Part shown: positions 24,932-51,827 of the stretch, one piece after another
Layout of the letters: every line of letters starts with the position of its first letter
Position numbering within the stretch: the first letter of the stretch is position 1
Source: Paeniglutamicibacter sulfureus
GTDB taxonomy: Bacteria > Actinomycetota > Actinomycetes > Actinomycetales > Micrococcaceae
NCBI RefSeq assembly: GCF_030512175.1
Contig: NZ_JAULBL010000001.1
Coordinates: forward strand, 1,216,510-1,280,509
Reading direction: 5' to 3'
Length of the DNA stretch: 64,000 bases
Notes under the pieces: model-generated
Databases searched by the model: none
What the model was told of the DNA's origin: nothing
What the model saw: the letters and a program-made list of their open reading frames with translations, nothing else
Position numbers and translations under genes: made by a program

Positions 24932-25020
24932 CCATCGGTCCTGGCGGTAGCACCGGATCCCAAGGACGGGAGTGGTTGCTGCGGCGTCAACGAGCCAGGT
25001 CTCTCAGCCGCTCTGGATGG
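24932..25020 (-). ncRNA. SAM-I-like riboswitch, leader of metN operon
   Basis: On the minus strand the element runs from CCATCCAGAGCGGCTGAGAG through GACGCCGCAGCAACC to GGTGCTACCGCCAGGACC and GATGGAGA. P1 is CCATC/GATGG, P2 is GCGGC/GCCGC, and the conserved GCAACC and GGTGC pair as P3. The metN ATG is 107 nt downstream. Immediately before the metN ribosome site, CTCGG-GTGAA-CCGAG forms a hairpin abutting AGGAG. The expression platform may therefore be this hairpin rather than P1. Low SAM should allow expression of the whole metN-metQ operon. Confidence 0.9.
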
Positions 25021-25028
25021 CGTGTGTT

Positions 25029-25051
25029 GGCGTTGGTCGATTGCCAACGCC
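25029..25051. repeat. Inverted repeat just upstream of SAM aptamer
   Basis: GGCGTTGG (25029-25036) and CCAACGCC (25044-25051) flank a 7-base spacer, directly before the metN-leader aptamer. It may be a protein operator or a 5' RNA hairpin; there is no further evidence for either. Confidence 0.45.
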
Positions 25052-25147
25052 GAACAGTTCAAGTGTGTCGCAGAATCTTCGATCGAACCAAGACTAATCG
25101 CACTCCGGTGAAACAAATCGACTCACAGAACGATTTCCGCGCTTGAT

Positions 25148-25219
25148 TTGCTTCATGAACCGTCATAAGTCGGAAAATGAAGCGTCGATCCGCCCTACCT
25201 TGCTTCATGATTGCGTCAT
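25148..25219. promoter_or_regulatory. Repeated TTGCTTCATGA elements upstream of metN leader
   Basis: TTGCTTCATGA occurs at 25148-25158 and 25200-25210, each followed by GTCAT after three or four bases, and an inverted ATGAAGC lies between them at 25177-25183. Spacing of the two direct copies is 52 bp, close to five helical turns. This looks like a cluster of regulator sites ahead of the metN transcript, in addition to the riboswitch. The remaining sequence up to the terminator at 25531 holds no gene I can support. Confidence 0.5.
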
Positions 25220-25530
25220 GTTGAGAATGCGCCCCACGCGCGCGCCCCGGTCTTGCCGAGCCAATTCCAGCCCATAGGTGAACCCTCGTCTGAGCACCAC
25301 CAAGGTTCGCCACCCGTGGGATTTGCGAAACAACAACCGGTGACCCACTGCTGCGTCACCGGCGGCGACAAAGATTGCGCGACGTCAAAGACACCCGCGG
25401 CCGTCACCATGTCCGATCGCTGCAGACCGAATTCCGAGGGCAACCGCGCGGCGACCAACGGGCCAATTTTCGTGGTTACCCCATGGATCGCCAGAGGTAT
25501 TTACACGATGACCCGCAACCGCCCACAGCA

Positions 25531-25577
25531 AACCCGCAGGTACCGGGAGCCGCGTGGGCGGAAGGTACCTGCGGGTT
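25531..25577 (-). terminator. Terminator of the DoeA-SDR operon
   Basis: AACCCGCAGGTACC (25531-25544) pairs perfectly with 25564-25577 around a 19-base loop. It starts 13 bp after the SDR stop in the leftward direction. The stem is G+C-rich but the loop is long. Confidence 0.7.
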
Positions 25578-25590
25578 CATCGTCGTCGGC

Positions 25591-26343
25591 TCACTTGGCC
25601 AAATAGCCACCATCGACCGGCAACGAAACGCCGGTGACGTAAGTATTGGTGGCACTGGCAAAATAACCCACCGCTTCGGCAACGTCTTCCGGCATCGCCA
25701 CTCGACCCAGCGGAATCGCTTCGGAGACCGCTCGCTCCGCGGCCATGGGATCCTCGTGTCCGGCCAACCAGTCCTCAAACATCTGGGTACGTGTCATCCC
25801 CGGGGCCACGGCATTGACCCTGATGTTGTGCGGTGCAAGTTCCACCGCCGCGGCCCGTGTCAGCGCCAGCATCGCGCCCTTGCTCGCGCTGTAGATCCCC
25901 ATGGTGGGAACCCCAATGCTTGCCAGCCGCGAGGTCACGTTGATGATCGCGCCGCCACCGGCACCACGCATGACCCGCCCCGCAGCTTGGAGACAGAAAA
26001 TCGCCGCGAAGGTGTTGATTTCAAAGGTTTCCCGCACCTCCTCCTCCGGGGTGTCGAGTAGGGAATTGATGTGGTCAATGGCCGCATTGTTCACCAGAAC
26101 ATCAAGCCTTCCGGTGCGTTCGAGCACCGTGTCCATCAATGACTGCGCGGCACCCGAAGCGGTCAGTTCAGCCCGCACGAAGAAGCCGGACTCGCCGAGT
26201 TCTTCGGCCACCTGCTCTCCGCGTTCCTCATTTCGTCCGGTCACCACGACCTTCATTCCATCTGCCACCAGTCGTCGGGCAATCTCGATTCCGATTCCCG
26301 AGGTGGCGCCGGTAACCAGTGCGACGCGTTGGTTTTCTCCCAC
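25591..26343 (-). CDS. SDR-family oxidoreductase
   Basis: This 250-residue classical SDR has the motifs TGATSGIG (NAD(P) binding), NNAA, catalytic Ser in NVTSRLASIG and YSASK, and the ending VSLPVDGGYLAK. It resembles 3-oxoacyl-ACP-reductase-type or sugar/polyol dehydrogenases, and the substrate cannot be told. The start is taken as GTG 26343 because GGAGGAGAG lies four bases upstream; a GTG at 26361 would lie upstream of that site. It is last in the leftward operon behind the MHS transporter (78 bp) and before a hairpin, so it is probably an accessory step of the ectoine-like pathway. Confidence 0.85.
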   Translation of the reverse strand: MGENQRVALVTGATSGIGIEIARRLVADGMKVVVTGRNEERGEQVAEELGESGFFVRAELTASGAAQSLMDTVLERTGRLDVLVNNAAIDHINSLLDTPEEEVRETFEINTFAAIFCLQAAGRVMRGAGGGAIINVTSRLASIGVPTMGIYSASKGAMLALTRAAAVELAPHNIRVNAVAPGMTRTQMFEDWLAGHEDPMAAERAVSEAIPLGRVAMPEDVAEAVGYFASATNTYVTGVSLPVDGGYLAK

Positions 26344-26421
26344 TGCGCTCTCCTCCTTCACTTCGCTGTTTGTCCTACTTTTTTGCGGGACCGATCAATT
26401 CCTGGCCCGGGCGGCTGTCGC

Positions 26422-27834: not shown

Positions 27835-27858
27835 GGTGTGCTCCTTTGGCGGCCTTAA

Positions 27859-29088: not shown

Positions 29089-29093
29089 CCGGT

Positions 29094-37634: not shown

Positions 37635-37645
37635 CATCCGACAAG

Positions 37646-37942: not shown

Positions 37943-39346
37943 TTACTTGACCTCGGCGTTGGCGAACCGGTAGTTGGCCGCGCGGTGGGAGTCCTGGACG
38001 CGGTCTCCCTTGCCGAAGAGCTTGTTGCGCAGCGTGCCCTCGACGTATTCGGTCGGGTAGGCACCGCGGGCCTGCAGCTCGGGAACGATGAACTCCACGA
38101 TGTCCTCAAAGGTTCCCGGGGTGATGGCATAGGCCAGGTTGAACCCGTCTACGTCGGTGTCTTCGACCCACTCGATGAGCTTGTCGGCAACCTCGGTCGG
38201 CGAGCCGACGGTGATCGGTCCGAACCCGCCAACGCCCACCCATTCGGCCAGCTGGCGGATGGTCCACGGGTTCCCGTCGTCTCCGCTGGCCTTTTGGAAG
38301 GTCGTGACGGTGGACTGGATGGCGTTGGACTTCACGTTGGCACCAATGACGTCGTCCGGGCCGTAGGTGGACATGTCCACGCCCATCCAGCCGGAGATCA
38401 GGGCGAGGGCCCCGTCGATGTCGGCGTAGGACTTGTAGTCCTCGAACTTGGCCTGCGCTGCCGCGGAGTCCACATCCGTGATGATCGTCTGCATGGCGTA
38501 GATGCGCACGTCGTAACGGCCGCGGCCCGCGGCCTCGGCGGCGTCGCGGATCTTGGTGACGGTGGCCTTGAGCATTTCCTTGGTCGGGGAGGTCACGAAG
38601 ACCGCCTCGGCGTTCTCCGAGGCGAACTTCAGTCCGCGCGGCGAGGCGCCGGCCTGGAACACCACGGGGGTGCGCTGCGGGCTGGGTTCGGTGATGGCAA
38701 TGCCCGGGACCTTGAAGTACTTGCCCTCGTGGTTGATCTCATGGACCTTGGTCGGGTCGGTGAAGATGCCGCGCTCAACGTCGCGCACCACCGCGTCCTC
38801 TTCCCAGGAGCCCTCGAGCAACTTGTAGATGACCTCCATGTACTCGTCGGCCTGGTTGTAGCGCTCGTCGTGCTCGAGCTGGTCCTCCTGGCCCATGTTC
38901 CGTGCGGCGGAGGGCAGGTAGCCGGTCACGACATTCCACCCGACGCGGCCCTTGGTCAGGTGGTCAAGGGTCGCCAGGCGGCGGGCGAAGGGGTAGGGGT
39001 GCTCGTAGGACGTCCCGGCGGTGACGCCGAAGCCGAGGTTCTCGGTCACCGAGGCCATGGCCGAAACCAGCATGAAGGGGTCGTTGACCGGGACCTGGGT
39101 GCCGGCGCGCAGCGGCACCTCGTTGGAGCCGCCGAAGACGTCGTAGGTGCCCAGCACGTCGGCGATGAAGATGCCGTCGAACTTGCCCTTTTCCAGGGTC
39201 TTGGCCAGGTCGGTCCAGTAGGACAGGTCCTTATAGCGGGCCGACTGGTCCTTGGGGTGCTTCCACAGACCCGGGGACTGGTGTCCCACGCAGTTCATGT
39301 CGAAGGCGTTGAAACGGATGTGGCGGGGGGCGGGTGTCTGGCTCAT
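37943..39346 (-). CDS. NtaA/SnaA/DszA-type FMN-dependent monooxygenase (copy 2)
   Basis: This 467-residue luciferase-fold monooxygenase is paralogous to the protein at 21806. Blocks include FDMNCVGHQSPGLWKHPKDQ, GKFDGIFIADVLGTYDVFGGS, DPFMLVSAMASVTENLGFGVTAGTSYEHPYPFARRLATLDHL, GRVGWNVVTGYLPSAARNMG and SPQRTPVVFQAGASPRG; the end has RNKLFGKG as in copy 1. It needs FMNH2 from a reductase encoded elsewhere. I start at ATG 39346 (MSQTPAPRH), preceded by GAAGGAC. It follows the DszC-type gene by 82 bp under a SAM riboswitch, so a role in sulfur scavenging by C-S bond cleavage is likely; a nitrilotriacetate-type role is not supported by context. Confidence 0.9.
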   Translation of the reverse strand: MSQTPAPRHIRFNAFDMNCVGHQSPGLWKHPKDQSARYKDLSYWTDLAKTLEKGKFDGIFIADVLGTYDVFGGSNEVPLRAGTQVPVNDPFMLVSAMASVTENLGFGVTAGTSYEHPYPFARRLATLDHLTKGRVGWNVVTGYLPSAARNMGQEDQLEHDERYNQADEYMEVIYKLLEGSWEEDAVVRDVERGIFTDPTKVHEINHEGKYFKVPGIAITEPSPQRTPVVFQAGASPRGLKFASENAEAVFVTSPTKEMLKATVTKIRDAAEAAGRGRYDVRIYAMQTIITDVDSAAAQAKFEDYKSYADIDGALALISGWMGVDMSTYGPDDVIGANVKSNAIQSTVTTFQKASGDDGNPWTIRQLAEWVGVGGFGPITVGSPTEVADKLIEWVEDTDVDGFNLAYAITPGTFEDIVEFIVPELQARGAYPTEYVEGTLRNKLFGKGDRVQDSHRAANYRFANAEVK

Positions 39347-39428
39347 GTTTGTCCTTCGCGAGGTGGTGGGAGTTTGCGGATCCGATGGTGCGCGGATCAA
39401 GTCAGTGGTTCGGTGGCGGTTGGCGGTT

Positions 39429-40766
39429 TTAGGGGAGGCCGGTTGCCGGTATTGCACCCACGTCGCCGATGGCGTTGAGCTGCTGGGGTGCCGTTCCATT
39501 GACCTCGTAGTCGCCGATGATGCGCGCCTTGTAGATCGCCGGGTTGTGGGTGGCAACGGTGCGCGCGTTGCGCCAGTGCCGGTCCAGGTTGCAGCCCTTG
39601 GCGGTTGCCGAGGCGCCCAGTCCGTCAAAAAGCTTGGTCGCCGCCGAGAGAACCAGCGGCTGGACCACGGCTTGCGCCCGATCCGCGGCGAGTTCACACA
39701 CCGCAAACCGCTCTGCCGGGCTCAGCGAGGCATCGGCAAGCGCGATCTCGATCTCCGCCACGGCGGCCAGGACGATGGAGTCGACGGCGAACGCGGTGCC
39801 CGAGATCTCGCCGACCAATTGGAGCACCTGGGGTTCCTCGCGCACCGGAACGCCCGTTCCGGTGCTGAAGCTTCGAGTGCGGGCCTGGACCGACGAGCGC
39901 ACGTCATTGAGAACCGCGCGCGTGATTCCGGCTTGGACCCCCAGGAGCACCAGCTGGAAGATGGCGGATTCCGGGTCGTTGACCTGCTGTTCGTCGGGCA
40001 GGATCGTGTCCACCGGGACGTTCTCGAACGTGGTCGAGCCGGTGCCGGTGAGCTGCTGCCCGAATCCGTCCCAGTCGTCAAAGATCTTGACCCCGGAATG
40101 CTGCGTGGAGACCACCGCGATCTGGCGGCCGGCGCGGGCCGGATGCGCCACGGCGACGGCGACCCAATCGGCGTAGATCGTGCCGGTGCAATAGTATTTC
40201 TCGCCATTGAGGATCCAGCGTTCGCCCTGCTTGGCAATGGTCGTGTTGAGCGTGCCCAACCGGTTCCCGCCGCGCTCGGTGTAGGCGTTGCCGACGATCT
40301 GGCCGGCAACAATGCGCTCGATCCAGCGGTGCCGCAAGGCATCGTCCTCAAGCAACAGCACGGATTCGACGAAGCCGATGTGTGAGCGCCACAGGTGCGC
40401 CACCTGTGAATCCGCCTCGGCGAGTTCGATCAAGAGGCGGAACAAGTCGGACACGCTTGCCCCATAGCCACCTGCTGCCACCGGGATGCGCAATGCCCCG
40501 AATCGCACCCGGTTCAGCCACCCGACAGGTTCAAAGGGGAGGGTCCGGTTGGCATCGCGCTCGCTGGCCCCGACCGCGATCTTGGCGAAGACCGGGCGGA
40601 AAATCGCAGCCAACTCGTCATAGTGACCGTTCAGTGGAACGCCCGGCGTGAGTTTGAGCAGGTGTCGGGCGGGGGTGTCGCCGGTGAATGCGTCGAGGTT
40701 GACGGCGCCAAAGATGTTCGGGTCCGCCTCGACGGCGTGCGCTAGTGCAAATGAATCGATAGCCAT
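39429..40766 (-). CDS. DszC/SfnB-type flavin monooxygenase (copy 2)
   Basis: This 445-residue acyl-CoA-dehydrogenase-fold protein is a paralogue of the one at 20528: FGALRIPVAAGGYGASVSDLFRLLIELAEADSQVAHLWRSHIGFVE, YTERGGNRLGTLNT, WILNGEKYYCTGTIYADW, DDWDGFGQQLTGTGST and LDRHWRNARTVATHNPAIYKARIIGDYEVNG. It has an extra N-terminal segment of about 25 residues. The start at 40766 lies four bases after GGAGAG, which overlaps the riboswitch P1 helix, so its translation should be SAM-repressed directly. Oxidation of a sulfide or sulfone (as DszC does) in tandem with the DszA-type gene is inferred. Confidence 0.9.
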   Translation of the reverse strand: MAIDSFALAHAVEADPNIFGAVNLDAFTGDTPARHLLKLTPGVPLNGHYDELAAIFRPVFAKIAVGASERDANRTLPFEPVGWLNRVRFGALRIPVAAGGYGASVSDLFRLLIELAEADSQVAHLWRSHIGFVESVLLLEDDALRHRWIERIVAGQIVGNAYTERGGNRLGTLNTTIAKQGERWILNGEKYYCTGTIYADWVAVAVAHPARAGRQIAVVSTQHSGVKIFDDWDGFGQQLTGTGSTTFENVPVDTILPDEQQVNDPESAIFQLVLLGVQAGITRAVLNDVRSSVQARTRSFSTGTGVPVREEPQVLQLVGEISGTAFAVDSIVLAAVAEIEIALADASLSPAERFAVCELAADRAQAVVQPLVLSAATKLFDGLGASATAKGCNLDRHWRNARTVATHNPAIYKARIIGDYEVNGTAPQQLNAIGDVGAIPATGLP

Positions 40767-40775
40767 GAATTCTCT

Positions 40776-40867
40776 CCATCGGTCCTGGCGTGAGCACCTA
40801 CCGCCCAATTAAGGGGAAGGGGTTGCTGCGGCGTCATGGAGCCAGATCTCTCGGCCGCTCTGGATGG
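40776..40867 (-). ncRNA. SAM-I-like riboswitch before DszC/DszA-type pair
   Basis: The minus-strand element begins CCATCCAGAGCGGCCGAGAG, continues through GGCTCCATGACGCCGCAGCAACC-type core to GGTGCTCACGCCAGGACC, and closes with GATGG. P1 is CCATC/GATGG. The ribosome site GGAGAG uses the last two G of P1 and the ATG follows nine bases after P1, so SAM binding should hide the site: a translational switch with no separate expression platform. Confidence 0.9.
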
Positions 40868-41296
40868 TTGTTGGACATATTTCTACACGCCCCGGCGAAG
40901 CGGAGACAACCCGGTTCGTCACAAATGGCACGTGCGTCACAGGGCACAGCGGGCTTCCTGGCCCGCCGCGGCATCGGCTCGGTAGCGACCCAACGCCGAT
41001 CCGACAACCATTCCTTCGACGAGACACCAGCCTTGGCGCGGAGGTCAGGCGACCCGGGGCCCCAGGTTCAGCCGGCCCGCCCGACAGCGGGTTCACGCGG
41101 CTGGACGCGTGATACGCGGGCCGGGAGGGCGGTCCCCCGCCGGCACTTTGGCGCTCGTGGAAAGAAGATGAAAATTCCCTATTTCATCAAATTTCATTCG
41201 ATGGATTGCCGATTCTTTCCGGCTTGTCGAACGTTCCGTCACATTACGGCCGGCTTGCCTCCATGACGCCGGATCGACTTTGATGAAGGTAACAAC
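40868..41296. other. Divergent promoter region between two SAM riboswitches
   Basis: This 429-bp stretch separates back-to-back riboswitches transcribed outward. Open frames on either strand are short and have no ribosome sites, so I see no gene. It must contain two divergent promoters; I cannot assign -35/-10 boxes with confidence. Confidence 0.5.
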
Positions 41297-41381
41297 CCAT
41301 CCCGAGCGGCCGAGAGATCTGGCTCCATGACGCCGCAGCAACCACCTCGACCGAGGCCGGTGCTACCGCCAGGAACGATGG
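41297..41381 (+). ncRNA. SAM-I-like riboswitch before ssuBAC-like operon
   Basis: CCATC (41297-41301) pairs with GATGG (41377-41381) as P1. Between them are GAGCGGCCGAGAGATCTGG, GACGCCGCAGCAACC, the small hairpin CCTCG/CGAGG, GGTGCTACCGCCAGGAACG. The ribosome site GGAGAG begins in P1 and the ATG is at 41389, seven bases beyond. This is the best-formed of the five and again implies translational control. Confidence 0.93.
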
Positions 41382-41388
41382 AGAGAAC

Positions 41389-42201
41389 ATGACTTCCACG
41401 CTTGACCACCCCACGCTTTCCCTACCGGCACGCGGCTCCAACCCGGCGCTTCGCGTGACGTTCAAAGGCGTTGGACGCAGCTTCGACGGTCGCAAAGTGT
41501 TGGGTGATGTCGACCTCGAGATCGCGGGCGGCGAAGTCGTGGCAATCCTTGGCCCTAGCGGTTGCGGCAAGTCCACGTTGCTTCGCTCGGTCTCCGGACT
41601 GGACCGACCCTCCACGGGCCAGGTCCTGATCGACGGCACCGCCGTCAACGGCCTGGACGCCCGATGCGCCGTGGCTTTCCAGGAACCGCGCTTGCTGCCG
41701 TGGCAATCCGTTGAAAAGAACGTGGCTTTGGGGCTTCCCCAGGGTACGGACCGTTCCATTGGCGCCACCCGCGTAGCCGAACTCCTGGAACTCGTCGAGT
41801 TGGATGCCCACAGCACCTTACGGCCGCGGGAAATTTCCGGCGGCATGGCCCAGCGCACCTCGCTTGCACGGGCACTGGCCCGACGCCCCGGAGTCCTGCT
41901 GCTGGATGAACCATTCGGCGCGCTGGATGCACTTACACGCCTGAAAATGCAGGACCTGCTGCTGGACATCCACGGCGCCTACCCGACGACCGTCTTGCTG
42001 GTCACCCACGACGTCGACGAGGCGCTCCAGTTGGCCGACCGCATCGTGGTGTTGGGTCGCCCGAACGGCGCCACCTCCGCCACCGTCACCCAGGTCCTCA
42101 CGGTCCCCGGCGCACGTCCGCGCCACCGCAGCGATGAAGCCCTGGCCCGAATGCGCAGCTCGCTGCTGGCGTCGCTCGGCGTTGACGCGCACCGCCACTA
42201 G
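41389..42201 (+). CDS. ssuB: Sulfonate/nitrate-type ABC transporter ATPase
   Basis: This 270-residue ATPase of the SsuB/TauB group has Walker A GPSGCGKST, Q-loop QEPRLLPWQSVEKNVALG (typical of SsuB), signature ISGGMAQR, Walker B VLLLDEPFGALD and H-loop THDVDEAL. It energises import of a sulfonate or another organosulfur ester. It is first of three genes under the SAM riboswitch at 41297 and followed 86 bp later by the binding protein. The riboswitch context supports sulfur over nitrate. I use the ssu symbol for family, not proven substrate. Confidence 0.9.
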   Translation: MTSTLDHPTLSLPARGSNPALRVTFKGVGRSFDGRKVLGDVDLEIAGGEVVAILGPSGCGKSTLLRSVSGLDRPSTGQVLIDGTAVNGLDARCAVAFQEPRLLPWQSVEKNVALGLPQGTDRSIGATRVAELLELVELDAHSTLRPREISGGMAQRTSLARALARRPGVLLLDEPFGALDALTRLKMQDLLLDIHGAYPTTVLLVTHDVDEALQLADRIVVLGRPNGATSATVTQVLTVPGARPRHRSDEALARMRSSLLASLGVDAHRH

Positions 42202-42287: not shown

Positions 42288-43316
42288 ATGAACCGCAAAT
42301 TCTTCTCGCGTCGCGCGCTCATCGCCACCACCGCGCTGGCAACTGCCACCGCACTGCTGACCGGTTGCGCCGGCGAAGGCTCCGGCGGCGCCAGCGCCAA
42401 CGAAGCCACGACCCTCAACATCGACTTCGCCACCTACAACCCGTTGAGCTTGGTGCTCAAGGAAAAGGGCTGGCTGGAAGCATCGCTGAAGGACCAGGGC
42501 GTCACCGTGAACTGGGTGCAGTCGGCCGGTTCCAACAAGGCCAACGAAGCGCTCCGCGCGGGCGCCATCGACGTGGGATCGACCGCGGGCTCCGCCGCCC
42601 TGCTGGCCCGCTCCAATGGTTCACCGATCAAGACCATCGACATCTACTCGCAGCCCGAGTGGGCTGCCCTTGTGGTCGCCAAGGACTCCCCCATCAAGGA
42701 GGTCTCCGACCTGAAGGGCAAGTCAGTGGCTGCCACCAAGGGAACCGATCCTTACTTCTTCTTGCTGCAGGCCCTGGAACAGGCAGGGCTTGGTCCCGAC
42801 GACGTGACGGTGGAAAACCTCCAGCACGCCGATGGGCGCGCTGCCTTGGAAAACGGCTCCGTGGACGCCTGGAGTGGACTGGACCCGATCATGGCCGGCG
42901 CCGAGGAAAACGGCGCCACGCTGATCTACCGCAACCTGGACTTCAACACCTACGGCGCGCTGAATGCGACCGAATCCTTCCTCAAGGATTCCCCGGAAGT
43001 CGCACAGGCCGTGGTGGATTCCTACGAAAAGGCCCGTGAGTGGGCTGCGGACAACCAGCAGGAAACCGCGACCATCCTGGCCGACGTGGCCGGGCTGGAA
43101 ACGCCGGTTGCCGAAAAGGTGATCCTCGAGCGTTCCAACCTCGATGTTTCGGCGGTACCCGGTGAAAAGCTGATCGACGTCCTCACCGTCGTCGGGCCGA
43201 TCTTCGTTCAAACCCACGACGTCACGGACCAGGCCGCCGTAGATGCCGCACTCAGCACCCTGATTGACGACTCGTTCGCCAAGAAGGCCGATTCATCCAA
43301 GGTCAAGGCCTCCTAA
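42288..43316 (+). CDS. ssuA: Sulfonate-type ABC transporter substrate-binding lipoprotein
   Basis: This 342-residue SsuA/TauA/NMT1-type periplasmic-binding-like lipoprotein has an N-terminal Arg-rich stretch, a hydrophobic segment and lipobox LTGC (Cys near residue 26). Family features are YNPLSLVLKEKGWLEASLKDQGVTVNWVQSAGSNKANEALRAGAIDVGSTAGSAAL, VSDLKGKSVAATKGTDPYFFLLQALEQAGL and the C-terminal YEKAREWAADNQQETATILADVAGL. AAGGAAACC precedes ATG 42288. Its stop overlaps the permease start (TAATG). Confidence 0.92.
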   Translation: MNRKFFSRRALIATTALATATALLTGCAGEGSGGASANEATTLNIDFATYNPLSLVLKEKGWLEASLKDQGVTVNWVQSAGSNKANEALRAGAIDVGSTAGSAALLARSNGSPIKTIDIYSQPEWAALVVAKDSPIKEVSDLKGKSVAATKGTDPYFFLLQALEQAGLGPDDVTVENLQHADGRAALENGSVDAWSGLDPIMAGAEENGATLIYRNLDFNTYGALNATESFLKDSPEVAQAVVDSYEKAREWAADNQQETATILADVAGLETPVAEKVILERSNLDVSAVPGEKLIDVLTVVGPIFVQTHDVTDQAAVDAALSTLIDDSFAKKADSSKVKAS

Positions 43317-44146
43317 TGTCCGCTGACCTGTCCCTGGACACCAGCGAATCGACCAACGGCAACGGCGCGTCCATGCCCGGGGGCCCACTGCTGGCATCCC
43401 GGCTGGGCCGCATCGGCCTGGGCACGTTGGTGCCGCTGTTCATTCTCGCCCTGTGGCAGGGTGCGACCTCGTTCGGGTGGGTCACCCCGGCTCAGTTGCC
43501 GTCGCCGGCCTCGGTGTTTTCCGCCGCGGTGGATCTTCTCGGTCGCGGAGAACTGGGCAACCACATTGGCATCTCAACCCAGCGCGTCCTGGTCGGCTTT
43601 GCCATCGGCGCGGTGCTGGGCCTGGCCATCGGCGCCTTGGTCGGCTTGTCGCGCATAGCCGACGCTTTGCTGGCGCCGACCATCGGGGCATTTCGCGCGG
43701 TGCCATCCCTGGCCTGGGTCCCGCTGTTGATCCTGTGGATGAAGATCGGTGAGGACTCAAAGGTCACCCTGATTGTCATTGGTGCGTTCTTCCCCGTATT
43801 CACCACCGTGTACCTGGCCCTGCGCCACGTGGACAAGAACTTGATCGAGGCCGGCCGCGCTTTCGGACTCAAGGGCGTCAAGCTGTTGACGACCATCCAG
43901 CTTCCCGCGGTGGTTCCGGCAATATTTTCCGGCCTCCGGCTGGCCCTGGCCCAAGCCTGGCTTTTCCTGGTGGCCGCCGAATTAATCGCATCCTCCATGG
44001 GCCTGGGGTTCCTGCTGCTTGATTCTCAAAACAACGGCCGCATCGATCGACTGATCCTCGCCATCATCCTGCTGGCCGTGCTGGGCAAGACCACCGACGC
44101 GTTGGTGGGCTTGGCCGAACGCTGGGCCATCAAACGCTGGGCCTGA
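43316..44146 (+). CDS. ssuC: Sulfonate-type ABC transporter permease
   Basis: This 276-residue SsuC/TauC-type permease has about six membrane segments and the loop EAGRAFGLKGVKLLTTIQLPAVVPAIFSGLRLALAQAWLFLVAAELIASSMGLGFLLLDSQNNGRIDRLILAIILLAVLGKTTD. Its ATG shares a base with the ssuA stop. No SsuD alkanesulfonate monooxygenase gene accompanies the transporter; the divergent DszC/DszA-type pair may take that role. The acetyl-CoA synthetase with its own riboswitch follows after 125 bp. Confidence 0.93.
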   Translation: MSADLSLDTSESTNGNGASMPGGPLLASRLGRIGLGTLVPLFILALWQGATSFGWVTPAQLPSPASVFSAAVDLLGRGELGNHIGISTQRVLVGFAIGAVLGLAIGALVGLSRIADALLAPTIGAFRAVPSLAWVPLLILWMKIGEDSKVTLIVIGAFFPVFTTVYLALRHVDKNLIEAGRAFGLKGVKLLTTIQLPAVVPAIFSGLRLALAQAWLFLVAAELIASSMGLGFLLLDSQNNGRIDRLILAIILLAVLGKTTDALVGLAERWAIKRWA

Positions 44147-44181
44147 CCCGGCAAACCTGCCCAAGAACCACCGAAGAAAAG

Positions 44182-44262
44182 CATCCCGAGCGGCCAAGAG
44201 AACCGGCTCCGTGACGGCGCAGCAACCACATATGCGGTGGAGTGCCAGCGCCAGGACCGATG
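44182..44262 (+). ncRNA. SAM-I-like riboswitch before acetyl-CoA synthetase (diverged)
   Basis: It aligns with the element at 41297: CATCCCGAGCGGCCAAGAGA, GGCTCCGTGACGGCGCAGCAACC-type core, then AGTGCCAGCGCCAGGACC and GATGGAGA. P1 is CATC/GATG, P3 contains CCAC/GTGG, and P2 has one mismatch (GCGGC with GGCGC). GGTGCTA of the consensus reads GAGTGCCA. It lies between two co-oriented genes (ssuC ends at 44146) with the ATG ten bases past P1. SAM affinity may be weaker or altered. Confidence 0.75.
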
Positions 44263-44271
44263 GAGAAGACA

Positions 44272-46248
44272 ATGACTGAAACCCTGAACACGACCGCCCC
44301 CGGCATCGCCAACGAGGCCACCTGGAACGAAGCCGAACGCCTGGCCTTCTGGGACGCCGCGGCGCGGCGCCTGAGCTGGTCCGACCAATGGCACACCGTC
44401 CACAGCAGCACCGGCGTGGACCCGGAGACGCGGCGTGGACCCGAGTTGCGCTGGTTCGAGGGCGGCAAGCTCAACGCCGCCTACAACTGCGTGGACCGCC
44501 ATGTGGAAGCCGGTCGCGGCGACAAGGTGGCCCTGCACTTCGAGGGCGAGCCCGGCGACACCACCACCGTCACGTACAAGGACCTGCAGGACCGTGTTTC
44601 CCAGGCCGCCAATGCGCTGGTCGCCTTGGGCATCACCAAGGGCGACCGCGTGGTCATCTACCTGCCGGTGTTGGTGGAAACCATCGTCATCACCCTGGCC
44701 TGCGCGCGCATCGGCGCAGTGCACTCGCTGGTCTTCGGCGGCTTCTCCGCCGAAGCCCTGAAGTTCCGCGTCGAGGACACCGCCGCCAAGCTCCTGGTCA
44801 CCACCGACGGCCAGTTCCGCCGCGGCACATCGGTCCCGGTCAAGGCGCACGCCGACGAGGCCGTTTCCGGCGAAAACTCGATCGAGCACGTCCTGGTCAT
44901 CAACCGCACCGGGCACACCGACATCAACTGGGTGCAGGGCAGGGACGTGTGGTGGCACGAGGCGGTTGACACCGCGAGCACCGAACACACCCCCGAGGCC
45001 TTCGACGCCGAAACGCCCTTGTTCATCATGTACACCTCCGGCACCACCGGCCAGCCCAAGGGCCTGGTCCACACCACCGGCGGCTACCTGACCCAGGCCT
45101 CGTGGAGCCACGAGTTCCTCTTCTCGAACCCGGATCCGGCCAAGCGCGAGAACGACGTCCACTGGTGCACCGCCGACCTGGCCTGGGTCACCGCGCACAC
45201 CTATGAGATCTACGGACCGCTGTCCAACGGCGTCACCCAGGTCATCTACGAGGGCGTGCCCAATGCCCCGCACCCGGGCCGCCACTTCGAAATCATCGCC
45301 CGCTACGGCGTGACCAGCTACTACACCGCGCCCACGTTGGTGCGCTCGCTGATGGGCTGGTTCCCCGAGGGAATCCCCGAGGACTACGACCTGTCCTCGA
45401 TCCGGTTGGCAGGAACCGTCGGCGAAGCCGTGAACCCCGAGGCGTGGCGCTGGCTGCGCAGCCAAGTCGGACGCGACACCGCCGCCGGCATCCCCATGGT
45501 CGACACCTGGTGGCAGTCCGAGACCGGTGCCACGATCCTCTCCCCGCGCCAGGACGACACCGCGTTCAAACCCGGCTGCGGCACCCGCGCGCTGCCCGGC
45601 GTAGCCGTGGACATCGTCGACGATGCGGCGCAAACAGTGGAGAAGAACCTGCAGGGCTACATCGTGCTGACCAAGACCGGGCCGTCCATGGCCCGCACCG
45701 TCTGGGGCAACCCCGAGCGCTACTACACCTCCTACTGGGAGAAGTACGCGCAGCAGGGCTGGTTCCTGGCCGGTGACGGGGCGCGCTTCGATGAGGACGG
45801 GGACATCTGGATCCTAGGCCGCACGGACGATGTCATCAACATTTCCGGGCACCGGCTTTCCACCATCGAAATCGAATCGGCACTAGTCACGCACCCGGCA
45901 GTCGTCGAGGCCGGGGTTTGCCCGACCAGCGATGCCAAGACCGGCCACGCGGCCACCGCGTTCGTGGTGCCGTTCGACAAGTCCTTGGTGGGAACGGACC
46001 TGGCCGGCGAAGCGCTGGCAAAGCAACAGGCCCTCATTGCGGAGCTTCGCAACCACGTGGCAACCCAGATCGGCCCCATCGCCAAGCCGCGCGAGATAGT
46101 CTTCGTTCCCGATGTGCCCAAGACCCGCTCGGGCAAGATCATGCGCAGGCTGCTGACCCAGCTCTTTGAGCGCAGCGCCCTGGGCGACACCACCAGCCTG
46201 CAGAACGAGCCGTGCATCGCACAGATCAAGGAGATCTGCGACGCCTAA
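44272..46248 (+). CDS. acs: Acetyl-CoA synthetase-type acyl-CoA ligase
   Basis: This 658-residue AMP-forming ligase of the Acs family activates acetate (or another short acid) with ATP and CoA. It shows YTSGTTGQPKG (ATP loop), VDTWWQSETGA whose Trp limits the acyl pocket to acetate-size substrates, the hinge region GRTDDVINISGHRLSTIEIE and the acetylatable Lys in PKTRSGKIMRR. Length fits Acs. Unusually, translation appears SAM-controlled: the GGAGA site sits at the 3' end of a riboswitch. That links acetyl-CoA supply to O-acetylhomoserine-dependent methionine synthesis, or ligation of an acid released from an organosulfur substrate; both are inference. Confidence 0.93.
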   Translation: MTETLNTTAPGIANEATWNEAERLAFWDAAARRLSWSDQWHTVHSSTGVDPETRRGPELRWFEGGKLNAAYNCVDRHVEAGRGDKVALHFEGEPGDTTTVTYKDLQDRVSQAANALVALGITKGDRVVIYLPVLVETIVITLACARIGAVHSLVFGGFSAEALKFRVEDTAAKLLVTTDGQFRRGTSVPVKAHADEAVSGENSIEHVLVINRTGHTDINWVQGRDVWWHEAVDTASTEHTPEAFDAETPLFIMYTSGTTGQPKGLVHTTGGYLTQASWSHEFLFSNPDPAKRENDVHWCTADLAWVTAHTYEIYGPLSNGVTQVIYEGVPNAPHPGRHFEIIARYGVTSYYTAPTLVRSLMGWFPEGIPEDYDLSSIRLAGTVGEAVNPEAWRWLRSQVGRDTAAGIPMVDTWWQSETGATILSPRQDDTAFKPGCGTRALPGVAVDIVDDAAQTVEKNLQGYIVLTKTGPSMARTVWGNPERYYTSYWEKYAQQGWFLAGDGARFDEDGDIWILGRTDDVINISGHRLSTIEIESALVTHPAVVEAGVCPTSDAKTGHAATAFVVPFDKSLVGTDLAGEALAKQQALIAELRNHVATQIGPIAKPREIVFVPDVPKTRSGKIMRRLLTQLFERSALGDTTSLQNEPCIAQIKEICDA

Positions 46249-46252
46249 CCGG

Positions 46253-46906: not shown

Positions 46907-47054
46907 ATGGTGCGCCCGCGCGGGCAGTGTTTTCTAGGCGTGGACCACGCCGATCTTCACGCGGTCCCGTCCACACGCATTCGCCACATGGTATTTGCCC
47001 TCCGGCACCTCACGACGTCGTGCCCCCGGGCGCGAACGCCGCGATCGCGCGGCT

Positions 47055-47987
47055 TCACCCTTCCCCATCCAGCCGTTCGGTGAGGATTCGCTTCGCCCTG
47101 CCCTGCAGGATCCCGAGCGATTCCTTGATCAGCGGTGAGCCGAGGCTGCCTTTGCGCACCGCCGCGACAATCCTGCGCGACGGTTTTCCGCGGCCCGAGA
47201 TGGGCAGTCGGGTCACGTTTTCCGCGTTTCCCAAGGTCGCCAGGCGCGGCAGCAGTCCAACTCCAAGGCCAGCTCCGACGAAGGCGATCTGGGTTTCCCA
47301 CTCAACGGCCTCGTGGGCAATTCTCGGCGTGACTCCGACGGCCGTAAACGCCGCAGTGAACAGGGAATGATAGGTGGAACCCGGGGCTTCGGTGATCCAG
47401 GGTTCGGTCGCCAGCTCTTCGAGCGTTACCGTTGCCCGCGTTGCCAGCGGGTGGTCGGAGGGGAGGATCACGTCGAGGGGATCGTTGAGCAGCGTGGTCT
47501 GCTCGAAGCGCGGATCTTCCTCAACATGGGTCTGGGACTGCATGGCCACGATGACCGCCAGGTCGATTCGTTCGGCGACCAGCAGGTCGAAGCAACGTGC
47601 CGGATTCGCCTCGAGCACCTGGACGTCCACCGAGGGACGTGCCGTACGCAGGGTGGCGGCCAGCGGCGCGAGCAGCTGGGCAGCCGCGGTGGAAAAGCCG
47701 CCCAGCCCGAAGTGGGACTGTACCTGGTCGCCGGCCTGGAGCGCCGCGGCCCGCAGCCGCTCCCATTCCGTCATCAACACGTCGGAGCCCGTCACGAGGA
47801 ACCTGCCGGTGGCCGTCAGGCGCACGCCCCGCCCTTCCTTCGCCAGCAGCTCCATGCCCAACACGCGCTGCAGCTCACGCAACTGTGCCGACACCGCTGA
47901 GGGCGAATATCCGGTGAGTTCCGCGGTTGCCCCGACGGTGCCGGTCCGGGCAAACACTCTGAGCGTGGTGAGTCGCGGATCGATCAT
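47055..47987 (-). CDS. LysR-family regulator next to Rieske oxygenase
   Basis: This 310-residue LysR protein begins MIDPRLTTLRVFARTGTVGATAELTGYSPSAVSAQLRELQ (winged helix) and has an effector domain starting near residue 90 (FGLGGFSTAAAQLLAPLAATL), with DPLDVILPSDHPLA and GLGVGLLPRLA. The preferred start is ATG 47987, the usual LysR beginning; the frame continues nine codons upstream. It is divergent from the Rieske oxygenase with a 159-bp intergenic region and is the likely regulator of that pair. Confidence 0.9.
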   Translation of the reverse strand: MIDPRLTTLRVFARTGTVGATAELTGYSPSAVSAQLRELQRVLGMELLAKEGRGVRLTATGRFLVTGSDVLMTEWERLRAAALQAGDQVQSHFGLGGFSTAAAQLLAPLAATLRTARPSVDVQVLEANPARCFDLLVAERIDLAVIVAMQSQTHVEEDPRFEQTTLLNDPLDVILPSDHPLATRATVTLEELATEPWITEAPGSTYHSLFTAAFTAVGVTPRIAHEAVEWETQIAFVGAGLGVGLLPRLATLGNAENVTRLPISGRGKPSRRIVAAVRKGSLGSPLIKESLGILQGRAKRILTERLDGEG

Positions 47988-48146
47988 GCACCTATTCTGC
48001 ATCATTATCCCCAAAATCTTGCGCTTTTATTGCAGGGCATCGATCCATACCCTCGTGAGTAAGAAGTTTCCGGCATTTCGGTGACCTGGATCACCAACCG
48101 GGACCCCGGCCCGCATGCCCGCCCCATTCCCCCGAGGAGTAAACAC

Positions 48147-49451
48147 ATGTCTGCATCAGTGAACGTGCCCCTGTCTTCACGCGGCAAGCTCGCTTCGTCA
48201 TTGCCTGCGGAGCAGCTGGCCGAGATCACCGAGTTGTTCGACTTCCGCCGCGAAGGCCATTCCCTTGACGCGCCCTTCTACACCGATCCGGCGATCTTCA
48301 AGATCGACATGCAGGCCATTTTCGGCGAACACTGGCTCTTTGCCGCGAGCGTCGCCGAGCTCCCGGAACCGGGCGACTATGTGACCGTCGACTACGGGCC
48401 CTACTCCCTGATCGTGCTGCGCAACGACGAGGGCGGCGTGAACGTCCTGCACAACGTGTGCCGCCACCGCGGCGCGCGCGTGTTGACCGAGTCCACCGGA
48501 ACCACGGGGAACCTGGTGTGCGGCTACCACTCCTGGACCTACGCCCCCAGCGGAGACCTGATCCACGCTTCCGCACCCGGGGAAACGAAGTTCGACAAGG
48601 GCTGCTTCGGGCTCAAGCGCGCCCACAGCCGCGAATACGCCGGCCTCATCTTCGTCTGCATGGCCGAGGAACCGCCGGCCGACTTCGACGAAACTGCGAA
48701 GATCTTCGAGCCCTACCTGGCCCCGCACGACCTCTCGAAGGCAAAGGTCGCCTACCAGCAGAACATCATCGAGGAGGGCAACTGGAAGCTCGTCATGGAG
48801 AACAACCGGGAGTGCTACCACTGCGACGGGCACCCGGAACTGGCCTGTTCCCTGTTCCCCACCTGGGGTTTGACCGAGGGCCTGATCCCACCGCACCTCG
48901 AGGAGGTGTGGGACCGCAACACCGAGGCGCAGGCCGCGCTCGAAGCCCGCTGCCGGCGCTACGGCATTCCCTACGAGGTCGTTGAGGAGCTAGACACCCG
49001 GGTGGCTGGCATCCGCATCTCGCGCGAGTCCCTCGACGGCGACGGCGAATCGTTCTCCCCCGACGGACACCGACTCTCCAAGAAGCTGCTCGGGGACCTG
49101 CGCGACTTCCGCCTCGGCCGCTGCTCGATGCACCTGCAACCCAACAGCTGGTTCCACTTCCTCGGCGACCACGTCATCACCTTCGCAGTGTTCCCCGTCA
49201 ACGAGCACCAAACCCTGGTGCGCACCACCTGGCTGGTCGCCGACGATGCCGTGGAAGGCGACGACTACGACCTGGAGAAACTCACGCACACCTGGAAGCA
49301 GACCAACCTGCAGGACAAGGAATTCGTCGAACTCTGCCAAAAGGGAGCCGGCAGCCCCGCCTACGAACCCGGCCCGTATATGAAAAGCGAATACCAGGTC
49401 GAGGCATTCATCAACTGGTACATCCAGCGCGTGCAGGAACACCTGTCGTGA
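48147..49451 (+). CDS. Rieske oxygenase, glycine betaine/stachydrine demethylase-like
   Basis: This 434-residue alpha subunit has the Rieske cluster at C105-R-H-R-G and C125-GYH-S (CRHRG / CGYHSWTY) and the mononuclear-iron motif WKLVMENNRECYHCDGHPEL. The NNRECYHC block is characteristic of GbcA/Stc2-type oxygenases that remove an N-methyl group from glycine betaine or stachydrine, giving formaldehyde. GAGGAG precedes ATG 48147. The reductase gene overlaps its stop by four bases. Carnitine-type or other quaternary-amine substrates are alternatives; no other choline/betaine genes are in the window. Confidence 0.88.
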   Translation: MSASVNVPLSSRGKLASSLPAEQLAEITELFDFRREGHSLDAPFYTDPAIFKIDMQAIFGEHWLFAASVAELPEPGDYVTVDYGPYSLIVLRNDEGGVNVLHNVCRHRGARVLTESTGTTGNLVCGYHSWTYAPSGDLIHASAPGETKFDKGCFGLKRAHSREYAGLIFVCMAEEPPADFDETAKIFEPYLAPHDLSKAKVAYQQNIIEEGNWKLVMENNRECYHCDGHPELACSLFPTWGLTEGLIPPHLEEVWDRNTEAQAALEARCRRYGIPYEVVEELDTRVAGIRISRESLDGDGESFSPDGHRLSKKLLGDLRDFRLGRCSMHLQPNSWFHFLGDHVITFAVFPVNEHQTLVRTTWLVADDAVEGDDYDLEKLTHTWKQTNLQDKEFVELCQKGAGSPAYEPGPYMKSEYQVEAFINWYIQRVQEHLS

Positions 49452-50914
49452 CCATGACCACGACCGAGCCCACAATCATGACCGAGACCACGACCACGAC
49501 CATTACCGCGCCCCACCAGGAGCCACAGCGCATCCGCGGCCTGGAAATGCCGTGGAACCGCGTGCTGGGCAGCACCGAGGGACCGGCCAGTGCCGCGCGC
49601 GCCCTGGGCCCCTGGCACCCGCAGGAGTTCCTGGCCGAATGCGTCGAGATTGTTCCGGAAGTCGGTGGAATGCTGACCTTCGTGTTCCGCCGCGCAGACG
49701 GCGCGCCCCTCGCGTTCCGCCCGGGTCAATACGTGAACATCGCCTTCCCCGTGAACGGCGAGGGCGGGGACCCGATCGACCGCAGCTACTCCCTGTCCAG
49801 TTCGCCCACGAAACCGTGGACCTTCGACATCACGGTGAAGCGCGACCCGGCCGGCCGGGTCTCGCCGTGGGTGCACGAAAACGTCGGACCCGGCACGGTG
49901 CTCGAGATGCTCGGACCCGTCGGCGCCTTCCACCTGCCCGACGCCGACCGGCGGGCGCGCTACCTCCTGCTGGCCGCGGGCTCCGGCATCACCCCGATCA
50001 TGTCCATGCTGCGGACCATCCACTCGCTGCCCGGACAGGCAGACGTGGTGGTGCTCTATCACGGGGCCGCACCTGGAGGCTTCGCCTTCCACCAGGAACT
50101 GGGCTACATCGCCACCGTGGATTCGCGCGTCACCGTCCACTTCTCCCTGGGCGACCGCAGCGCGCCCGCGGACTGGGAAGGCCTCACCGGACGGCTGTCC
50201 ACCGCGATGCTGGATGAGGTGGCGCCAGATGCCAACGGACGCCAGGTCTACGCCTGCGGCCCCGAGGGCTACCTGAACAACGTGTCCGAACTGCTTGCCG
50301 CGGTCGGCGTCGACGACACCTCCATCCACATGGAATTCTTCTCCGGAGACTGCGAGACGACCCTGGAATACCAGACAGAGGTTGCCCTGGCGGAGGAGAT
50401 TGCCGAGGAAATCGCGGAGGAAATCTCCGATTCGGCGGAGGACTACTACGAAAGCCAGCCTTCCGCCCTGGGCATGTACGAACCGGCCTACGATGACGAG
50501 GGCCCGCTGGAGGCCACGGGACTGCCGCTCCAGGCGGCCGATCCCGACTTTGCCGAACCAGGCCCCGTCGATTCCGAGGTTCCGGCCGCCGAGGCAGAAA
50601 CAGCGGAACCCTCCGCCCCCGACGTTTCGGCATTCGACACCGTCGGCACCGGAAGCCTCACCCTGTCCTTCATGCGCACCGGCATCAATGTCCGCATCGA
50701 CCCCGAGGAGAAGATCCTCGGCATTGCCCAGCGAGCCGGAGTCAGGATCGGCGCCAACTGCCAGGAAGGCATGTGCGGCTCGTGCAAGATCGTGAAGCTT
50801 TCCGGTGATGTTGAGATGAACCACCAAGGCGGGATCCGCGCACGGGAGATCGAGGCCGGCAAGTTCCTGCCGTGTTGCTCGACCGCGCGGACCGATCTGG
50901 TGATCGACGCCTAG
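49448..50914 (+). CDS. Rieske-oxygenase reductase (GbcB-like) with long acidic linker
   Basis: This 488-residue three-part electron carrier has an FAD domain with RSYS at 112-115, an NAD domain with LLAAGSGITP near 175-183 and CGPEGYL at 270-276, and a C-terminal plant-type 2Fe-2S ferredoxin with Cys438, 443, 446 and 476. It passes electrons from NAD(P)H to the Rieske oxygenase. Odd features are a Thr-rich N-terminus (about 20 residues) and a roughly 95-residue acidic linker (303-400) containing AEEIAEEIAEEIS; typical GbcB proteins, around 365 residues, lack both. The GTG start overlaps the oxygenase stop. Confidence 0.9.
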   Translation: MTMTTTEPTIMTETTTTTITAPHQEPQRIRGLEMPWNRVLGSTEGPASAARALGPWHPQEFLAECVEIVPEVGGMLTFVFRRADGAPLAFRPGQYVNIAFPVNGEGGDPIDRSYSLSSSPTKPWTFDITVKRDPAGRVSPWVHENVGPGTVLEMLGPVGAFHLPDADRRARYLLLAAGSGITPIMSMLRTIHSLPGQADVVVLYHGAAPGGFAFHQELGYIATVDSRVTVHFSLGDRSAPADWEGLTGRLSTAMLDEVAPDANGRQVYACGPEGYLNNVSELLAAVGVDDTSIHMEFFSGDCETTLEYQTEVALAEEIAEEIAEEISDSAEDYYESQPSALGMYEPAYDDEGPLEATGLPLQAADPDFAEPGPVDSEVPAAEAETAEPSAPDVSAFDTVGTGSLTLSFMRTGINVRIDPEEKILGIAQRAGVRIGANCQEGMCGSCKIVKLSGDVEMNHQGGIRAREIEAGKFLPCCSTARTDLVIDA

Positions 50915-51051
50915 CTGGCTGGTTCCAGGAGGTGACCTCGGAAGCATGGATGGCCGGGATGGAGGTCATCGGCCCTCGCCGCGCAAGGCCAGGGGGTCGC
51001 CAAGGAGGTTCCAGCCATGCCAACGTGGTTCATGTTGGAGGGCGGAATTTC

Positions 51052-51603
51052 CTAGTGTGCGGCGGCGGACAGGTGCCGCTGCAGCAGGCTGATGTCCACT
51101 TCGACGATCTGGCCATTGCGCAGCGGTTTGGTTCGCACGCCGCCCTGCAGCTCATCAACAGTCAGTCGGATCAATGTCCCGTGGGCCACGGCAATGATGT
51201 TCTTGCCCTCGTAACGCAGCACCAGCTCACTGAGGGCGGAAATCCCGCGCTTCACCACGTCTTCCTCGGGCTCTGCCGAGTGCAGCAGGAGGTCGATCTC
51301 CTCGCGGGGCAGGTCGCGGACCACACGGCCTTCGGCATTGCCGTAGTGGCGTTCCTGGAGACCGCCCAATTTTTCGGTCAGCGTCAACCCCAGGTCATAC
51401 CCGATGAGTTCCGCCGTTTCCGCTGCGCGGCCAAGCGTCGATGAGACCAGTACATCCCAGTGGCGGGTTACCAGTTCCCGGCCCGCGCCACGTGCCTGCT
51501 CACGTCCCAGCTCATTGAGCGGAATATCCGTCTGACCCTGAAGTCGACCTTCGGCATTCCATGCCGTTTCACCGTGACGGACCAAAACCAAGGTTGCACT
51601 CAT
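51052..51603 (-). CDS. Histidine phosphatase (phosphoglycerate mutase-like)
   Basis: This 183-residue protein of histidine phosphatase clan branch 1 has LVLVRHGETAWNAEGRLQGQTDIPL with the phospho-accepting His, SSTLGRAAETAELIG, LQERHYGNAEG and VAHGTLIRLTVDEL with the second His. It probably dephosphorylates a small metabolite, as in CobC or GpmB-like enzymes. ATG 51603 is chosen because MSATLVLVRHGE is the family start; the upstream 29 codons are G+C-rich non-homologous sequence. It is divergent from the metY riboswitch. Confidence 0.88.
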   Translation of the reverse strand: MSATLVLVRHGETAWNAEGRLQGQTDIPLNELGREQARGAGRELVTRHWDVLVSSTLGRAAETAELIGYDLGLTLTEKLGGLQERHYGNAEGRVVRDLPREEIDLLLHSAEPEEDVVKRGISALSELVLRYEGKNIIAVAHGTLIRLTVDELQGGVRTKPLRNGQIVEVDISLLQRHLSAAAH

Positions 51604-51737
51604 GGCCACAAGCCTAACCCGGCAGGAACGCCGCCGGGATCCGGTGCAGATCCTTCGATTCCCATCCCCCCGGACGCAACCTAAGCACACATTCTTTGGC
51701 TACAGGCAATTTTCTTGCCACAATGGATCCCAGACCC

Positions 51738-51827
51738 CCATCCCGAGCGGCCGAGAGATCTGGCTCTACGACGCCGCAGCAACCTTCCACACTCCGGTGG
51801 ACAAGGTGCTACCGCCAGAAACGATGG
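51738..51827 (+). ncRNA. SAM-I-like riboswitch before metY
   Basis: CCATC (51738-51742) pairs with GATGG (51823-51827). The core GAGCGGCCGAGAGATCTGG, GACGCCGCAGCAACC and GGTGCTACCGCCAG is nearly identical to the copy at 41297; the hairpin between GCAACC and GGTGC is TCCACACTCCGGTGGA-like. Here the gene starts 168 nt downstream, so control must act through the intervening leader, where I see no clear T-tract terminator. The 75 bp before it hold the divergent promoter region with the phosphatase. Confidence 0.92.

Follow-up and report, generated by a model that had tools for sequence, protein, structure and literature searches.

Four intact P4-less SAM-I riboswitches and a degenerate fifth in a sulfur island of Paeniglutamicibacter sulfureus: apparent fixed slots and possible recombination joints

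The SAM-I (S-adenosylmethionine-I; S-box, RF00162) riboswitch comprises helix P1; helix P2 with a kink-turn; the pseudoknot PK-1, between L2 and J3/4; and helix P3, with its GCAAC/GGUGC core. It is found upstream of methionine and sulfur genes. These features recur in a set of elements within a 64,000-nucleotide (nt) stretch of Paeniglutamicibacter sulfureus DNA (contig NZ_JAULBL010000001.1, positions 1,216,510 to 1,280,509), here called the window. Four intact elements are labelled m1, m2, m3, and m5; m4 is the element before acs. Unlike the SAM-I consensus, the window elements lack P4, have a P1 of only five pairs, and occur in several copies per genome; among the genes that they precede are flavin monooxygenase operons, acs, and an importer of the sulfonate type. 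The reading favored here, with good but not full confidence, is that they govern a SAM-repressed organosulfur and methionine regulon, through a P4-less SAM-I subtype that is multi-copy in the Micrococcaceae and whose members serve as fixed slots, with excision between riboswitches.

Parts of this arrangement have precedents. SAM-I elements with the ribosome-binding site (RBS) in P1, amounting to direct translation attenuation, are described by Barrick & Breaker 2007 (PMC2258182). Likewise, m2 and m3 carry their RBS in the P1 3' strand, with the start codon right after. Direct occlusion was considered as a possible novelty and dropped, since that paper already predicts it. SAM-IV (RF00634) is also actinobacterial, shares the common core, and has no P4. 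SAM-IV has P5 and PK-2 downstream of P1 (PMC6890682); these cannot fit at m2, m3, and m4, because coding starts 5–8 nt past the element, and the best Rfam clan match is SAM-I. The SAM-I/IV variant (RF01725) is defined (PMC6890682 and PMC2864571) by the absence of PK-1 and a P2 without internal loop; the window elements have PK-1, and their P2 has the kink-turn internal loop.

A SAM-I riboswitch with translational action, as proposed for the window, is known from the Xanthomonas met operon (PMC7270179). There, a separate hairpin platform hides the Shine-Dalgarno (SD) sequence and AUG, whereas m2 and m3 have the SD within P1 itself. In this respect m2 and m3, whose aptamer and platform would be one unit, resemble the direct-occlusion riboswitches SAM-II, SAM-III, and preQ1 (PMC10907184), which are nonetheless different aptamer families. 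Already known, then, are the SAM-I family, its occurrence in multiple copies in some bacteria, and the placement of the RBS within P1. A literature search returned no title dealing with a P4-less SAM-I or with SfnB, Ssu, or acs genes preceded by a SAM riboswitch, which does not establish absence from print, and the search did not extend to riboswitch-to-riboswitch recombination. Riboswitches orphaned by rearrangement were raised as a possibility by Barrick & Breaker 2007 (PMC2258182).

Elements were called by cmscan against Rfam 15, in which the RF00162 gathering score is 44.4 bits. Within 27 kb, the window holds four intact SAM-I elements, probably SAM-sensing, and a fifth, degenerate one:

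24929..25023, minus strand: SAM-I riboswitch m1; RF00162 57.3 bits, P4-less; followed by a leader and then metN
40773..40870, minus strand: SAM-I riboswitch m2; RF00162 52.7 bits; P1 3' strand overlaps the SD of an SfnB-like gene (ATG at 40766)
41294..41384, plus strand: SAM-I riboswitch m3; RF00162 54.2 bits; P1 3' strand overlaps the ssuB SD (ATG at 41389)
44178..44266, plus strand: degenerate SAM-I element m4; 18 of 23 core pairs form, kink-turn G changed to A, SD kept; acs is next
51735..51830, plus strand: SAM-I riboswitch m5; RF00162 59.9 bits; 165 nt upstream of the inferred metY start

An earlier note on this DNA had proposed five SAM-I-like riboswitches. Four clear the gathering score, with SAM-I as best match in the clan, and for these both the SAM-I identity and the organosulfur/methionine regulon are supported; m4, at 25.7 bits (E 0.0016 in a 501-base search) and with broken core pairs, falls short. 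The near-identical core motifs quoted in that note are present, and m4 deviates from them. A subtype model trained on 26 related elements, including m1, m2, m3, and m5, gives m4 64.5 bits versus 102.7–106.1 for the others, which marks it as a true relative, but a degenerate one. Run over the window at E ≤ 0.05, this model found no additional element besides the five. Across the whole genome, RF00162 at E ≤ 0.001 gives six matches, four of them inside the window; the two outside lie ahead of genes for a methylenetetrahydrofolate reductase and for a sugar-type binding protein.

The subtype has a simple anatomy: P1 (five pairs), P2 (P2a and P2b) with a kink-turn, PK-1, and P3. The P4 part of RF00162 (17–18 model positions) shrinks to 1–2 nt in the alignments of m1, m2, m3, and m5, and P4 is also deleted in two further aligned copies (L084 and L097). 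By comparison, P4 is complete in all four canonical actinobacterial copies aligned (L111, L116, L123, and L136). Because the P4 consensus helix is absent, the elements are filed as a P4-less variant rather than as canonical SAM-I. The remaining core covaries. Among 120 subtype-model matches from 62 selected sources (110 distinct rows), 99.2% of cells in P1, P2a, P2b, PK-1, and P3 pair, and 10 of the 23 pairs are changed on both sides, versus a shuffled mean of 1.7. The alignment was fitted to a nested-helix model, so these counts lean towards nested helices; PK-1, which lies outside that model, pairs in 99.8% of cells. The letters of the tandem G.A kink-turn in P2, G19 A20 and G36 A37, are invariant in a 26-row alignment (A1), from which m4 departs.

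Copy number and length were surveyed in the family and in its class. Of 149 Micrococcaceae genomes, 122 have a match, and 82 of these 122 hold three or more copies; the median element length is 92 nt (150 rows, among the matches listed). Among 197 genomes drawn from the class, 140 have a match, 133 of 138 with one copy and five with two, at a median length of 134 nt; these class figures leave out the P. sulfureus genome and one family member. Both surveys used stricter filters that lose weak matches, so the copy numbers are lower bounds. Element length is only a proxy for P4, which is seen directly in the alignments of four long class copies. Among ten short class copies scanned (from 13 class regions fetched), five have no P4 (L196–L200) and two have a short one (L194 and L195), with L201–L203 counted in neither group, so the P4-less form occurs outside the Micrococcaceae too.

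The earlier note also judged the clustering unusually dense. Random placement of six elements does put four within 26.9 kb in just 4 of 200,000 simulations (uniform placement); set against this, multi-copy genomes are frequent in the family, and other dense clusters are visible among the matches listed (four elements in about 18 kb in G040 and again in G061).

At three sites in the window the P1 3' strand and the SD overlap, 5–8 nt ahead of the start codon. At m2 and m3 this strand reads GATGG and is followed by AG, making GGAG the likely SD. Fifteen genomes of the genus were compared. In the m2, m3, and acs slots (15, 11, and 15 elements, respectively) a start codon lies 5–8 nt past the element in 41 of 41 cases; 40 of these elements have GGAG and 35 have GATGG, and the six without GATGG are all acs elements. 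By slot, all 15 m2 and all 11 m3 elements have GATGG, GGAG, and the start 5–8 nt on; the acs slot keeps the start in 15/15, GGAG in 14/15, and GATGG in 9/15.

The m1 and m5 elements do not have this layout: their start codons lie about 105 and 165 nt downstream, respectively, so a separate platform must act. At m1 it is probably a hairpin that is kept in the genus alignment:

24832..24852, minus strand: hairpin TCCTCGGGTGAACCGAGAGGA holding the metN SD, the inferred m1 expression platform

The m5 leader is long and partly conserved in the genus alignment. The long copies from the wider actinobacterial class are mostly single and, in four of four alignments, carry P4; m1 and m5 differ from them by their long leaders. 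In 30 of 30 long, highest-scoring class copies an open frame of at least 100 codons starts no more than 20 nt away (a mechanical test, on GC-rich DNA); these 30 differ in whether the SD lies in P1. Short and long leaders both occur among 31 elements of other family members. Leader peptides were considered at m1 (a frame from the ATG inside P1, within GATGG, to a TAG just before metN) and at m5. Other leaders of the alignment do not keep the m1 frame (on visual inspection G011 and G014, for instance, show an early stop); the m5 frame has an early stop in G001 and G004. Because neither frame is kept across the alignment, the idea was dropped.

The elements stay in place while the genes behind them change. 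The m2 layout is the same in all 15 genomes. The m1 element and its leader are present in 14 (absent in G002), though the downstream gene varies: MetN (85–100% identical) in three, an Opp-type SBP_bac_5 importer protein in eleven (Pfam was run on one of these), and neither in G002. At the thresholds used, MetN and the Opp-type protein never occur together. The m1 leaders are near-identical up to the SD; where the cargo changes, divergence sets in beyond it. The m2–m1 distance is 3945 nt in the MetN genome G004 and 3200–4061 nt in the eleven importer genomes; in the window the two elements are 15,750 nt apart, including some 11.8 kb of additional sequence. Behind m3 lies ssuA in 8 of 15 genomes, an OsmC gene with a sodium:solute symporter gene (OsmC-SSF) in three (G004, G008, and G010), and nothing in four (G005, G006, G011, and G014), where acs follows directly. 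An identification of OsmC-SSF as an acetate-permease operon was tried and is not claimed, since all NCBIfam symporter matches fall below their cut-offs.

Slot identity is old. Identity averages 76% among the paralogous elements of one genome and 87% when a slot is compared across genomes; for 59 of 61 selected elements, the nearest neighbor belongs to the same slot class (both comparisons left out the acs elements and G013). These values do not support recent tandem duplication within the island, so the earlier proposal of assembly by duplication can stand for an old event only; later change looks like gene replacement plus excision at riboswitches. Deeper exchange between slots is possible: all five Glutamicibacter SfnB elements are nearer to Paeniglutamicibacter m3 than to m2, and among the five m3 elements of Glutamicibacter one is closer to m2. 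Taken together, the comparison suggests that the leaders are fixed slots and that the genes behind them are replaced over time.

The acs element shows graded decay. Its subtype-model scores fall from 102.1 to 20.3 bits across the genus, and 22–23 of 23 core pairs form in eight genomes and 18–21 in five (G013, at 66.1 bits, and G010, at 20.3 bits, stand outside this pair count). In G004 and G009 both sides of one P1 pair are changed. In P. sulfureus, the acs copy has probably left the SAM regulon.

The four genomes in which acs directly follows present a different picture: a single chimeric element that scores 50.7–55.9 bits against RF00162, over the cut-off. (The degenerate acs elements of the relatives G008 and G010 are not found by RF00162 at E ≤ 0.001.) The 62 columns upstream are 64–66% identical to m3 (m3–m3 baseline 66%) and 35–36% identical to acs (m3–acs baseline 35%). 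The 5' half of the riboswitch is also m3-like, at 95–96% versus 82–83% to acs. The short downstream flank is acs-like, at 66–84% versus 40–63% to m3. (The m3 of G012, which contains unknown bases, was excluded from this comparison.) Moreover, the chimera lies 418–421 nt from m2, and m3 lies 421–424 nt from m2 in 8 of the 11 genomes with intervening genes. An m3 promoter and 5' half before acs, in an intact chimera, is the expected outcome of recombination between two riboswitches.

In the acs DNA tree, G005/G006 group with G008 and G010 (support 100/97), and G011/G014 group with P. sulfureus (100/100). A purA tree also separates the two pairs, although its placement of G011/G014 is a different one and weakly supported. 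Two excisions by m3–m4 recombination are the simplest reading.

These observations can be assembled into a proposed mechanism, in which SAM binding, the direction of regulation, the recombination event with its order, and the acetate link are the putative parts. When SAM is plentiful it would bind the P1/P3 core and stabilize P1. At m2 and m3, where P1 contains the first half of the SD, the locked helix would hide that site and directly block translation of ssuBAC and of the SfnB-like operon; at m1 and m5 the distant platform (at m1, the SD hairpin) would have to respond. Joint shut-off by SAM, as the earlier note supposed, plausibly fits the anatomy of the four intact copies. When SAM is low, organosulfur compounds would be imported and oxidized, and homocysteine made by MetY. 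MetY releases acetate, and Acs re-activates acetate. Plausibly, then, Acs recycled the acetate released by MetY, with the acs riboswitch now degenerate in this species. In two lineages, the genes between m3 and m4 would have been excised through riboswitch recombination, leaving one intact chimera before acs.

More broadly, promoter, aptamer, and RBS make up a single conserved block that would place any gene attached downstream under SAM control; blocks of about 90 nt could serve as repeats through which genes are excised or swapped. There is about an even chance that the SAM riboswitches are exchange joints of the sulfur island in this sense, and that recombination rebuilt an intact acs switch in G005/G006 and, probably independently, again in G011/G014. 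If so, the island offers a concrete case of riboswitch-regulon editing: gene replacement behind fixed leaders, graded decay, and apparent repair by inter-copy recombination. SAM sensing would also be tied to the oxidation of organosulfur compounds by flavoproteins, and possibly to the recycling of acetate. The P4-less SAM-I is itself a compact natural aptamer of about 90 nt with the RBS inside.

Several results weigh against this picture. The first concern folding. In RNAfold calculations, which ignore the kink-turn, the pseudoknot, and cotranscriptional order, the m2 and m3 SD is paired even without ligand (mean unpaired 0.01 and 0.12, respectively), because AUGGAG has a potential pairing partner in CUCCAU, which ends P2b; enforcing P1 and P2a gives mean unpaired values of 0.45 and 0.37. 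The full CUCCAU-type pairing is permitted (C or U letters) at m2 in 10 of 15 genomes. At m1 the SD is mostly paired with or without the aptamer enforced, and SD pairing at m1 and m5 is hardly altered. The switching test at m1, m2, m3, and m5 thus revealed no SD opening in the ligand-free state; a simple open/closed switch is not supported thermodynamically.

A second concern is a deviation in m2. All 15 m2 elements read GGTGCTCACGCC, which no m3 or acs element has, placing a C at the J3/4 position where the other classes have A. On the present reading of the alignment, this position corresponds to A61, listed among the highly conserved SAM-I positions in PMC3764141; the change might alter SAM affinity.

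The remaining points concern decay and recombination. Among the 11 genomes with intervening genes, 7 carry a degenerate acs element, compared with none of the four that lack such genes, an association that is only suggestive because the genomes share ancestry. G009 shares the G-to-A change of the m4 kink-turn, yet all of its 23 pairs are intact. The 3' half of the chimeric riboswitch does not separate the m3 and acs parents (67–71% versus 65–67%). Finally, the purA and acs trees conflict on G011/G014.

The strongest alternative is an ordinary multi-copy SAM-I regulon, as in the Firmicutes, in which sulfur genes cluster, cargo is replaced by ordinary insertion and deletion, and the riboswitches are uninvolved. 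Cargo replacement in operons is common among bacteria, and 82 of the 122 family genomes with a match hold three or more copies. Multi-copy SAM-I regulons are known, with 11 copies in Bacillus subtilis (PMC2258182). Nor is the distance of the m3 slot from m2 always kept: it is 1176, 2738, and 4021 nt in G012, G002, and G004, respectively. Two features speak against this account: in the four chimeric genomes acs sits behind an m3 promoter, is spaced from m2 as m3 is, and has a downstream side of the acs type; and the m1 leader diverges only past the SD where the cargo changes. It is a real possibility, yet less probable than a role for the riboswitches in the regulon's remodeling.

A reversed order of events is rather unlikely. 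Here acs would first have stood beside an m3-type promoter and riboswitch, with ssuBAC or OsmC-SSF inserted later along with a riboswitch duplication. Such an insertion would yield identical anatomy, and the deep branches are weak in the purA tree and the acs tree alike. In Zafaria, which lies outside the genus, however, ssuB and acs each have an element of their own, and the acs tree nests G005/G006 with two genomes, G008 and G010, in which OsmC-SSF is present and the acs element is degenerate. Least probable, and doubtful at best, is a reading without decay, in which the acs element has switched to another ligand or is now a constitutive leader kept by selection: GGAG is kept in 14/15 acs copies and the same-species genomes G000 and G013 have several deviations in common (for example, the kink-turn G to A), but these two carry different letters at the same broken P2a pair, the scores fall gradually over the genus, and the lesions differ by lineage.

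The genes behind the elements, with their strands, are as follows:

24000-24824, minus strand: MetN-like ATPase, behind m1; MetN model 308, cut-off 499.7
23273-24007, minus strand: permease (MetI-like), m1 run
21806-23260, minus strand: NtaA/DmoA-family FMN monooxygenase, m1 run
20528-21793, minus strand: SfnB-like flavoprotein, m1 run
18626..20934, minus strand: two NlpA/MetQ-family substrate-binding lipoproteins; open frames, the first exceeding the likely gene; the protein-family model scan covers the first one only
39429..40766, minus strand: SfnB-like flavoprotein gene, behind m2
37943..39706, minus strand: NtaA/DmoA-family FMN monooxygenase, m2 pair; open frame, family match from residue 132
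41389-42201, plus strand: ssuB, behind m3
42288-43316, plus strand: ssuA; SsuA family 218.9 bits, cut-off 163.5
43316-44146, plus strand: ssuC, on the basis of Pfam only
44272..46248, plus strand: acs, acetate–CoA ligase, behind m4; 766.5 bits, cut-off 724.95
51996..53369, plus strand: metY, O-acetylhomoserine sulfhydrylase family, behind m5; 584.4 bits, cut-off 495.1; start inferred

The targets first listed for this region (importers, flavin monooxygenases, acs, and metY) thus hold in outline, with acs and metY over their cut-offs, and three labels change. The proteins called DszC have an acyl-CoA-dehydrogenase fold and are SfnB-like (SfnB model 262–294 bits, below the cut-off of 430.9; DszC model only 107–127 bits versus a cut-off of 850). 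Those called DszA are NtaA/DmoA-family FMN monooxygenases (468–548 bits, cut-off 279.7). MetN becomes MetN-like, since its score is below the cut-off. The genome holds three acs-like genes, the other two 54% and 37% identical to the island acs. Searching with the SfnB-like protein gave 27 loci, of which 15 are in Micrococcaceae (including Paeniglutamicibacter, Arthrobacter, Glutamicibacter, and Zafaria), 11 in Pseudomonas, and one in Dokdonia. The closest relative, at 96%, is from Paeniglutamicibacter.

Between acs and metY lie genes for a Rieske ring-hydroxylating oxygenase and its reductase (48081-50914, plus strand), with no SAM riboswitch found ahead of them. CoA_binding_2 proteins are encoded at the end of the metNI-metQ run (18078-18602, minus strand) and directly 3' of metY (53369-53869, plus strand).

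Elsewhere in the genome, a SAM-I element just below the cut-off (41.1 bits; L006 1501-1596, minus strand; G000:C1:1144708-1144803) lies ahead of a gene for a sugar-type binding protein (Peripla_BP_4), which is unusual as a SAM-I target; 96-nt matches of similar score lie about 100 kb from the island in six other genus genomes. In the actinobacterium G185 (L197), a P4-less SAM-I element (193-282, minus strand) and the start of a divergent SAM-IV element (447-501, plus strand) lie about 165 nt apart, the latter seen only in part because the L197 sequence ends within it. Finally, TCGAAGAATCTGCGACACACTTGAA-like and TCGAACGTTCCGTCACATTAC-like blocks are conserved across the genus upstream of m1 (about 25024-25098) and m3 (about 41204-41293); they are perhaps promoter or regulator sites.

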